A DNA stretch of 64,000 nucleotides from Armatimonadota bacterium (GTDB lineage: Bacteria > Armatimonadota > Fimbriimonadia > Fimbriimonadales > Fimbriimonadaceae), in NCBI GenBank assembly GCA_018268355.1, contig JAFDWR010000001.1, positions 91,961 through 155,960 of the forward strand, read 5' to 3'. The translations under genes were made by a program, and so were the position numbers. Below are positions 43,451-46,331 of the stretch, one piece after another; positions within the stretch are counted from its first letter, which is position 1; every line of letters starts with the position of its first letter. Below the pieces are notes generated by a model. The model was not told where the DNA came from. It ran no database searches and saw only the letters and a program-made list of their open reading frames with translations.

Positions 43451-44071
43451 GTGCCTTGGGCCACAATAAAGACCTTGGCGGAACAGAACCCACCTCAGGC
43501 GGTCATCATTGCCGGACCCAACGGGTCGGGCAAATCCACATCGGCAACGGGCCTTCTGCCGCCCGGCATGCCCTTTGTGAATGCCGACATGATTGCGACC
43601 GAGCTGAGCGGCATCCCCGGCACGGCGGGCGACATCAACGCCGGGAGACTGTTGATTGACCGGGTGCGCCAGCACGAGATCGACCGCGTGGACTTCGCGT
43701 TCGAAACCACTCTCGCCACCCGCATGCTGCTCACCCGCGTGAAGGAATGGAAGGAGATGGGCTACGAGGTCCACCTCCTTTATTTCTGGCTACCCAGCGA
43801 CGAGCTCGCGATTCATCGCGTGCGCAGCCGGGTGCTCAATGGCGGTCACCACGTCCCCGACGAAACCGTCCGACGCCGCTACAAGAGCAGCCTCTCGCAC
43901 TTCTTTAACCTCTACCGTCATGCCGCCCACACCTGGCGGATCTATGACAACTCGGGCGCGGGTGACCCGGTGCTGATCGCCAAGCTCGGCCGGAGTGGCG
44001 TGGTTACAGTCAGCAAGGAAGAGCTCTGGACCCAGCTGCTCAAGGAGTATTCCGATGAAGAAGCCGATTGA
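43451..44071 (+). CDS. Zeta-toxin-like P-loop kinase
   Basis: A 206-aa protein with Walker A 'IIAGPNGSGKSTSATGLLP', then 'MPFVNADMIA' (substrate-binding Asp region), 'VDFAFETTLATRMLLTRVKEWKEMGYEVHLLYFWLPS' and 'RVLNGGHHVPDETVRRRYKSSLSHF' (Arg residues of the zeta family). Zeta toxins phosphorylate UDP-N-acetylglucosamine and poison wall synthesis; many chromosomal relatives have unproven roles. GTG start at 43451 (TTG 43475 is an alternative). Overlaps the small downstream gene by 17 bp. Confidence 0.87.
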   Translation: MPWATIKTLAEQNPPQAVIIAGPNGSGKSTSATGLLPPGMPFVNADMIATELSGIPGTAGDINAGRLLIDRVRQHEIDRVDFAFETTLATRMLLTRVKEWKEMGYEVHLLYFWLPSDELAIHRVRSRVLNGGHHVPDETVRRRYKSSLSHFFNLYRHAAHTWRIYDNSGAGDPVLIAKLGRSGVVTVSKEELWTQLLKEYSDEEAD

Positions 44072-44431: not shown

Positions 44432-44447
44432 TCCCCGTTTTTCCCCG
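44432..44447 (-). promoter_or_regulatory. Possible third MraZ-box pair, reverse strand
   Basis: On the minus strand CGGGG starts at 44447 and again at 44437, separated by AAAAA, which keeps the YGGGN-N5 pattern. It overlaps a weak hairpin past the upstream operon, so chance similarity is possible. Confidence 0.3.
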
Positions 44448-44493
44448 CTTTCAGGGGTCTTCCCGGCCTTGCCGCCCTAACAGCTTGTCAAAA

Positions 44494-44675
44494 TAGTAGA
44501 CAAAAGCCTACTTAATCGTTAGTGCGGGGCCACCATTTTGCGTCCTCGACAAAAAATCTTCCCAAATTTTCCACGCCCCTCTGAGGGCTAAGGGATCGCA
44601 CAAATCGAGCCTCTTTCTGGTTCAAATCTGCGATTTTCTACATAAATTGTCTACTAGTAGACATCGTTAGTAGAC
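44494..44675. repeat. TAGTAGAC repeats with 14-bp palindrome
   Basis: TAGTAGAC occurs at 44494-44501, 44655-44662 and 44668-44675. The middle copy forms the right half of the perfect palindrome GTCTACTAGTAGAC (44649-44662), and the first copy is followed by the inverse half CTACT. This clustering in one intergenic region points to an operator for a dimeric regulator other than MraZ. Confidence 0.5.
44560..44574 (-). promoter_or_regulatory. Possible second MraZ-box pair, reverse strand
   Basis: On the minus strand GTGGA (44574-44570) and TGGGA (44564-44560) are separated by AAATT, the same spacer and 10-bp period as in the main array at 44697. Confidence 0.4.
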
Positions 44676-44696
44676 GTATTCTTCTGGCTGTGAAAA

Positions 44697-44731
44697 CGGG
44701 AAAATTTGTGAAAATTTGGGACCAAACGGGA
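44697..44731 (+). promoter_or_regulatory. MraZ-box array (four direct repeats, 10-bp period)
   Basis: CGGGA, TGTGA, TGGGA and CGGGA start at 44697, 44707, 44717 and 44727, each separated by exactly 5 bp (AAATT, AAATT, CCAAA). E. coli MraZ binds TGGGN direct repeats with 5-bp spacers to repress its own cluster. The array stands 156 bp before mraZ on the same strand. So autoregulation by the MraZ encoded here is likely. Confidence 0.7.
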
Positions 44732-44833
44732 AAGAAGTTGAGTTATCATATCGACGTCCGGCGATCGGGGGAAAGGGATTGACTCGAGAAGCGGAGACAG
44801 GGCGGGGGCCCTTGTCAGCGGAAAATCAGTGGT

Positions 44834-44863
44834 GGCAGATCCTCGGATGAAATAGGATCTGCC
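44834..44863 (+). promoter_or_regulatory. Leader hairpin before mraZ
   Basis: GGCAGATCCT (44834-44843) pairs perfectly with AGGATCTGCC (44854-44863) around a 10-nt loop, ending 23 bp before the ATG and about 12 bp before the AGGTGAGG ribosome-binding site. No T run follows, so it is not a simple terminator; attenuation or mRNA protection is possible. Confidence 0.5.
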
Positions 44864-44886
44864 CCACTCATCTATCAGGTGAGGCA

Positions 44887-45384
44887 ATGGCAACCAAGGA
44901 CAAGAGCATTGAAAACAAGCCTTGGTTGTTTGCGCGTGAAGATGTCACGATCGACGACCGGGGAAGGATCTCGGTCAAGCCTCGCTACCGACAGTTTCTG
45001 GGCGAAGAGATCGTCCTGCGACTTCACCCGATGGGCTATGTCGAAGTCCTCAAGCTCGCCGACTTCGAAGAGCAGGTGCGCCGAATCCAAGCGTTGGACC
45101 AGATGGACCCCGACGTCCAGCTCTATCGCAAGCTCGTCTTCAACTACACCTACAGCGAAGAGGGCTGGGACAACCAGGGCCGACTCGTCATTCCGCGACC
45201 TCTGCGCGAGGCGGCGGGACTGAAGCGCGACGTCATTCTCATCGGCGAGAACATGAACGTCGAAGTTTGGTCGGCCGAGCTTCGCCACCAGTTCGACTTC
45301 AAGAACGACACCTTCGACATGAGCCGCACCAAGCTTTACGGTGAGCTCTACCAACGAATTCGTCAGAACGGAGGGCAGCTTTGA
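44887..45384 (+). CDS. mraZ: Transcriptional regulator MraZ
   Basis: A 165-aa protein with two SpoVT/AbrB-like domains: 'DDRGRISVKPRYRQFLGEEIVLRLHPMGYVEVL' and 'EEGWDNQGRLVIPRPLREAAGLKRDVILIGENMNVEVWS', each with the MraZ Asp-x-x-Gly-Arg. MraZ is a ring-forming DNA-binding repressor or activator of the dcw cluster. First gene of the cluster; the AGGTGAGG site precedes the ATG. Its stop overlaps the rsmH TTG start. Confidence 0.95.
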   Translation: MATKDKSIENKPWLFAREDVTIDDRGRISVKPRYRQFLGEEIVLRLHPMGYVEVLKLADFEEQVRRIQALDQMDPDVQLYRKLVFNYTYSEEGWDNQGRLVIPRPLREAAGLKRDVILIGENMNVEVWSAELRHQFDFKNDTFDMSRTKLYGELYQRIRQNGGQL

Positions 45385-46331
45385 CCGCGGCCATGAGTGA
45401 GCTCCCTCCTTCTTCCGGTTGGATGCACGAATCGGTGATGCTCCGCGAGTGCCTGCAATATCTGCGCCTCCTTCCGGGGATGACGGTGGTGGATGGCACA
45501 CTCGGACTAGCGGGTCATGCCCTCGCGATGAGCCGCGAGATTGGCCCCAACGGACAGCTTTATGGCTTTGACTGGGACGAGGCAATGCTGCAGGAAGCGG
45601 CTCGGCGACTCACGGATGAGTCGGTTGCCCCGTATGAACTGGTCCATGCCAACTACCGTTCGATTCCCGACCACGTGTCGGGCGTCGACGCGATTCTGCT
45701 TGACCTCGGGTTGAGCAGCGTCCATATCGACACTGCGGGGCGAGGCATCAGCTTCCGGAACGAAGATGAGCCCCTTGACATGCGGATGGACCTCTCGCGA
45801 GGCGAGCCCGCATCGGCCCTGCTGAACCGATGGACGGCCAGCCAAATCGAGCGCATGCTGAAGGACTTTGGCGACGAGCGTTGGGCCAAGCGAATCGCCG
45901 AGAAGATCGTTGAGCGACGCCGAGACAAGCCGATTCGAACCGTCGGTGACTTCGTGCAGTGCGTGCTCGCCGCGATTCCCGTAGCGGCGCGCGAGAAGCG
46001 AATTCACCCCGCCACGAGGTCGAGCCAAGCCCTGCGCATCGCAGTGAACGGCGAGCTCGACGAGCTTTCCGAAGCGATTGAAGACATCGCCCGCTGCCTC
46101 GGTCCTGATGGCCGGATGGTGGTCCTCAGCTACCACAGCGGTGAGGATCGCGCGGTGAAGCAGGCCTTCCGGCGACTCGCCAGCGAAGGCGACTTTGAAG
46201 ATTTGACGAAAAAGCCTCTGGAGCCAAGCACCGAAGAAGTGCAACGCAACAGCAGGAGCCGAAGCGCGAAGCTTCGAGCAATTCGACGAAAGAACGGCCA
46301 TGAAGGCCAACGTGAGGATGACTTAGGATGA
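45381..46331 (+). CDS. rsmH: 16S rRNA (cytosine(1402)-N(4))-methyltransferase
   Basis: A 316-aa SAM-dependent methyltransferase (MraW) acting on C1402 of 16S rRNA in the decoding site. 'WMHESVMLRECLQYL' is the N-terminal block; 'VVDGTLGLAGHALAMS' replaces the usual D-x-T-x-G-x-G-G-H-S and so lacks one Gly; 'LYGFDWDEAMLQEA' and 'AILLDLGLSSVHIDTAGRGISFRNEDEPLDMRMD' follow, then 'ATRSSQALRIAVNGELDEL'. Start is TTG 45381, supported by GGAGGG 5 nt upstream and a TTGA overlap with mraZ; ATG 45393 is less well placed. Confidence 0.95.
   Translation: MTAAMSELPPSSGWMHESVMLRECLQYLRLLPGMTVVDGTLGLAGHALAMSREIGPNGQLYGFDWDEAMLQEAARRLTDESVAPYELVHANYRSIPDHVSGVDAILLDLGLSSVHIDTAGRGISFRNEDEPLDMRMDLSRGEPASALLNRWTASQIERMLKDFGDERWAKRIAEKIVERRRDKPIRTVGDFVQCVLAAIPVAAREKRIHPATRSSQALRIAVNGELDELSEAIEDIARCLGPDGRMVVLSYHSGEDRAVKQAFRRLASEGDFEDLTKKPLEPSTEEVQRNSRSRSAKLRAIRRKNGHEGQREDDLG

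Follow-up and report, generated by a model that had tools for sequence, protein, structure and literature searches.

Immediately before mraZ, in the window analysed here (a 64-kb stretch of a Fimbriimonadaceae genome, phylum Armatimonadota), four G-rich pentamers follow each other at a period of exactly 10 bp. Judging from sequence comparison, we consider it very probable that this array serves as the operator through which MraZ regulates its own operon, and that it forms the middle part of a larger control region, in which it lies between a probable LexA box and a folded leader RNA. There is good support for assigning it to a known kind of MraZ operator, as already proposed in the earlier note on this DNA: the genome has no second such array, its location is the promoter of mraZ, and arrays that correspond to it in place and period are found in relatives, from which we infer that MraZ binds here. 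Beyond the operator itself, the larger point appears to be that the whole compound region, LexA box, MraZ operator and leader, is conserved in the family. The following features are discussed below:

44432–44446, minus strand: third box set, GGGGA-AAAAC-GGGGA, outside the consensus YGKGA and scoring poorly against the boxes of relatives; probably due to chance
44495–44512, no strand assigned: possible second LexA box, AGTAGACAAAAGCCTACT, with the inverted repeat AGTAG-N8-CTACT
44557–44575, minus strand: second box set, in which a good MraZ-type box stands 10 bp from a degenerate one (score 10.9, chance level); function uncertain
44649–44676, no strand assigned: predicted cluster of LexA (SOS) boxes, GTCTACTAGTAGACATCGTTAGTAGACG, which includes a perfect palindrome of 14 bp; its GTAGAC core is found at lexA, repair genes and mraZ
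44697–44731, plus strand: predicted MraZ operator, boxes CGGGA, TGTGA, TGGGA and CGGGA with a period of exactly 10 bp; equivalents in relatives
44744–44749, plus strand: -10-like hexamer TATCAT, about 56 bp upstream of GGGCGGGG, a spacing as for TATAAT/TATCAT in relatives
44796–44816, plus strand: P2 hairpin of the leader, GACAGGGC-GGGG-GCCCTTGTC, from folding and covariation across relatives
44834–44863, plus strand: P3 hairpin of the leader, CGGA in a 10-nt loop (fold z = -2.5); relatives have GCA-NGGA-UGC
44867–44883, plus strand: small hairpin CTCATCT-ATC-AGGTGAG, from folding, seen in this genome only, which would cover the likely mraZ Shine-Dalgarno sequence
44887–45384, plus strand: mraZ, 165 aa (PF02381, 4.9e-16), two half-domains with the DxxGR motifs DDRGRI and DNQGRLVIP
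45381–46331, plus strand: mraW/rsmH, the next dcw gene (PF01795, 8e-86)

The array before mraZ and its proposed action

The dcw cluster has the order mraZ, mraW/rsmH, penicillin-binding transpeptidase and Mur ligase. MraZ is known as a multi-subunit ring, and several structures of related MraZ proteins have been solved (9sx6, 9qlg, 9qlr and 1n0e in the PDB, identified by title). Just upstream of the dcw region lies a gene for a Zeta-toxin-like P-loop protein (43451–44071; PF06414, 3.6e-10); the small open reading frame that follows it (to 44246) is a possible partner.

The array reads CGGGA AAATT TGTGA AAATT TGGGA CCAAA CGGGA, with YGKGA boxes starting at 44697, 44707, 44717 and 44727. The description in the earlier note, four such boxes with exact 5-bp spacers and AAATT used twice, was found to be exact. 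Runs of at least three YGKGA boxes at 10 bp occur at this one site in the window, and about 2e-5 four-box arrays would be expected in 64 kb. When the three-box pattern was searched in the whole 2.7-Mb genome, two overlapping matches were obtained, both of which are the same array (reversed control, 0). A single genomic occurrence directly before mraZ would be expected of a self-regulator whose targets are few.

From the end of the array, it is 13 bp to the -10-like hexamer downstream and 155 bp to the mraZ start; relative to the start of the MraZ match, the array stands at -190. The hexamer was placed by using as an anchor GGGCGGGG, a conserved stretch of the mraZ leader; a consensus scan of the region found no consensus sigma-70 promoter and did not pick up TATCAT. 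With this placement, the -35 region would be covered by array boxes. The MraZ ring would sit on the four boxes, one per helical turn and on a single face of the DNA, and occupy a stretch that begins about 13 bp before the -10 hexamer and reaches to about 47 bp before it. Bound MraZ would then block RNA polymerase at the dcw promoter, and MraZ would limit its own operon. Since the boxes lie over the -35 region, repression by exclusion of RNA polymerase is the likeliest action; on the other hand, the promoter is weak by consensus, so that some activation by MraZ is possible. DNA looping through distal half-sets would not be required.

Such looping had been suggested in the earlier note, which described two further box pairs of the same period on the opposite strand as parts of a three-set arrangement. 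The letters of these pairs are real, and the AAATT spacer does recur in the second set (GTGGA-AAATT-TGGGA, 44560–44574, minus strand), but the consensus YGKGA is not kept, as GTGGA lies outside it, and the pairs are near chance. If each box of a pair may carry one mismatch, about 1.2 pairs arise by chance per 300 bp; if one mismatch is allowed for the pair as a whole, the figure is about 0.19 per 300 bp; thus, the two distal sets are not significant alone. Nor does their opposite orientation speak for looping: across the order, boxes stand in either direction with respect to mraZ, and they are commonly opposite in relatives that lack any second set. A ring that bridges the array and the half-sets at 44560 and 44432 would close a loop of 140–270 bp. 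Besides the ring form of MraZ, this idea can draw on the minus-strand box TTTGGGAAGA (44557–44566), whose score is among the best in the window, and on a minority of relatives with distal strict box pairs. However, the mismatched, near-chance letters of the distal sets, the poor score of the third set and the rarity of regions in which a proximal and a distal strict pair are both present (7 of 75 non-redundant upstream regions) make it quite unlikely here, and looping via the distal half-sets is an unsupported possibility rather than a finding. The locus best suited to examining it among the relatives is L021, which has a proximal array and also a distal run of six minus-strand TGGG boxes, 10–11 bp apart, between -465 and -412 relative to the mraZ match.

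Equivalent arrays in relatives

We compared 90 mraZ upstream regions, including that of the window genome, and used 75 non-redundant relatives for counts. The window genome is the only one of its genus in this set, and its MraZ has no match elsewhere above 33% identity, so conservation was compared as arrangement rather than base by base; a scan of genome contigs with the window MraZ gave no match. Among the 75 relatives, CCCA pairs (that is, TGGG on the minus strand) were found 18 times at 10 bp and 37 times at 11 bp, with about one expected for each distance. A minus-strand TGGG pair at 10 or 11 bp is present in 36 of the 75 regions compared with 1.7 in shuffles (maximum 6), and these pairs cluster between -240 and -160, counted from where the MraZ match starts. 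The distances between boxes peak at 10–11, 20–22, 31, 42 and 53 bp, which places the boxes on the same side of the helix. Many relatives have a TATAAT-like -10 element flanked by the boxes.

Within the family of the window genome, antisense arrays of three to four boxes occur, and a few genomes have sense-strand arrays in the same place. Ten genomes of a sister family (loci L048, L049, L051, L055, L058, L060, L061, L074, L077 and L080) have four sense-strand AGTGG boxes, spaced at an 11-bp period, a short distance before mraZ; in the loci where the -10 element was read (L074, L077 and L080), the boxes lie downstream of it. These AGTGG arrays look like canonical MraZ arrays. What is conserved is therefore the place and the 10–11-bp period; strand and letters vary, a strict box pair is absent in about half of the relatives, and the CGGGA and TGTGA letters of the window array, as well as its orientation, do not match those of most relatives. 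This combination of conserved place and helical phase with variable strand and letters is characteristic of an MraZ operator, and it sets limits on how the MraZ ring reads DNA. Across the relatives, no clear correlation was observed between intact DxxGR motifs and the presence of boxes.

The E. coli operator of MraZ, described by Eraso and colleagues in 2014, reportedly consists of TGGGN-N5 direct repeats near its promoter. In Burkholderia cenocepacia, MraZ binds a fragment, PmraBc, with four 7-nt repeats (PMC7761207), the same number of repeats as in the window array. Both operators share with the array here G-rich direct repeats, a period of about 10 bp and a location beside the dcw promoter directly before mraZ. 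In contrast to both, the array here lies upstream of the -10 element and includes CGGGA and TGTGA boxes, and the boxes of the relatives are mostly antisense with an 11-bp period. A third site, AAAGTG[T/G] repeats of Mollicutes, is cited in PMC8475190; it likewise consists of successive direct repeats within the mraZ promoter, and its GTG core recurs in TGTGA in the window and in AGTGG in the sister family, although box letters and phylum differ from those of the window array. If the assignment is correct, MraZ self-regulation extends to a little-studied phylum.

It is conceivable that the array serves a different regulator that also uses direct repeats, given that the box letters here are unlike the TGGGA of most relatives and that the MraZ-operator reading in this phylum is built on sequence comparison. 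We consider this improbable, since the array shares place, period and core with boxes that precede mraZ in the sister family and across many genera, and since it occurs once in its genome, directly before mraZ. A chance periodicity of AT-rich promoter or UP-element sequence would agree with the A/T-rich spacers, which lie in the -35/UP-element region, but is very improbable, because none of 20,000 shuffles of 44601–44890 gave even three boxes in register and because the period is kept in relatives.

A probable SOS box upstream of the operator

The GTAGAC element at 44649–44676 is, on comparative grounds, most probably the SOS/LexA box of Fimbriimonadaceae. The perfect palindrome within GTCTACTAGTAGACATCGTTAGTAGACG occurs once in the genome, and plus-strand AGTAGAC words occur three times in the window, all at 44495–44675. 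Of 74 relatives, 61 have GTAGAC in the equivalent position before mraZ, compared with about 10 expected. Its identity as an SOS box is based on the presence of the same core at lexA (within 110 bp upstream in 30 of 30 loci examined in relatives, and also upstream of lexA in the window genome) and at DNA-repair genes. In 85 family genomes, the 12-mer ATAGTAGACATA was counted 71 times and its reversed control 3 times; most of these occurrences are away from mraZ. Sampled 12-mer or core sites lie before or beside genes for Y-family polymerases, methylpurine glycosylases, RuvA, SSB and a LigD-type domain, and further ones before or beside FtsZ and a Clp N-domain protein. A terminator-like match at 44648–44676 was not accepted as such, since it consists of the LexA palindrome with T's after it.

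In one family genome (G061, locus L201, site at 1485), the same SOS-type 12-mer is located 134 bp before the ftsZ open frame.

The LexA box is some 70–100 bp upstream of the promoter covered by MraZ boxes, which suggests that a second, upstream promoter may be the target of LexA. A link between LexA and mraZ is not new in itself: in the SOS meta-regulon of gut Gram-positive bacteria, a LexA box also lies upstream of mraZ, and B. subtilis LexA has been shown to bind such a site in vitro (PMC3998124). The case described here differs from it in phylum, in the GTAGAC type of the box, in its family-wide occurrence and in its combination with an MraZ array and a folded leader. What appears to be new is the motif, the phylum and the conservation of the link throughout a family, and a narrow literature search found no work on the SOS box in Armatimonadota. 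Fimbriimonadaceae would thus be a second lineage with a LexA–mraZ link, and the identification of a probable SOS box for this family would place mraZ, and ftsZ in one genome, under it.

The leader RNA and the proposed compound control region

Between the -10 element and mraZ lies a structured leader (44756–44886). In many members of the family it contains three hairpins: P1 with a GGA loop, P2 with a GGGG or GGGGU loop, and P3 with a GGA loop. In the joint P2–P3 alignment P3 was misaligned, so P2 was evaluated by permutation of its arms and P3 by a separate model. When pairings of the P2 arms were permuted among 42 genomes, none of 5000 permutations reached the score of the true left and right arms, and RNAalifold supported two pairs with double changes. 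For P3, seven pairs are changed on both sides and none of 500 shuffles reached the covariation score, in a set of 17 sequences which had been picked for P3 shape. The P3 model built from these 17 sequences gave 29 matches (E up to 1) in 229 kb, whose coordinates correspond to the mraZ leaders of 28 loci. The leader model R2 gave few matches with weak E-values across 21 whole genomes, some of them away from mraZ. In relatives, stems with GGA loops are 3–4 times more common in the leader than in shuffles, and no such excess was observed further upstream.

P2 is retained in the leader of the window genome. Its P1 hairpin lacks a clear GGA loop, leaving a single GGA, in a 10-nt loop, and the P3 model from relatives gave no match in this genome. 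A search of the region against Rfam returned two weak matches at chance level, neither of them inside the leader.

The inner part of P3 in relatives, GCA-NGGA-UGC, resembles the consensus RUACARGGAUGU of CsrA-binding RNA (PMC7652899). The csrA gene is present in the window genome (8.9e-25) and in all 70 of 70 complete family genomes. A CsrA target leader is expected to present GGA in hairpin loops, best with ACA/UGU-type closing pairs. In the relatives, one or two leader hairpins have GCA-NGGA-UGC loops, in a family in which csrA is universal, although the leader stems of relatives are longer than those of selected CsrA ligands (PMC7652899). Based on these features, we hypothesize that CsrA may bind the mraZ leader, with a weaker case for the window genome than for its relatives. 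The literature searched contained no report of CsrA control of mraZ or the dcw cluster.

Considered together, the sequence data suggest that three controls, LexA, MraZ and a folded leader, converge on the cell-division genes of Fimbriimonadaceae. The compound region would comprise, in order, the LexA (SOS) box, an MraZ operator placed over the promoter, and the folded leader with its GGGG-loop and GGA-loop hairpins. A more far-reaching version of this model, to which we give somewhat less than an even chance, is that in Fimbriimonadales LexA in response to DNA damage, MraZ by feedback at the promoter and CsrA on a new leader RNA act through a single dcw control region; the leader would then consist of two GGA-loop hairpins around a GGGG-loop hairpin. 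If this is true, the leader, conserved and so far unnamed, would represent a new RNA family that links CsrA directly to dcw expression, and CsrA may in this way control cell division at the post-transcriptional level.

Two groups of genomes in which MraZ had at first escaped detection or was not detected were also observed, both too small to weigh as a test. In two reduced genomes without a detected MraZ, the GTAGAC element, the leader and the strict box pair are all absent (n = 2). Three loci (L258–L260, in genomes G024, G017 and G019) encode a very divergent MraZ that had been missed by the search with the window protein; by eye these have no strict MraZ box pair (n = 3), and both the GTAGAC LexA-type boxes and the leader are kept.
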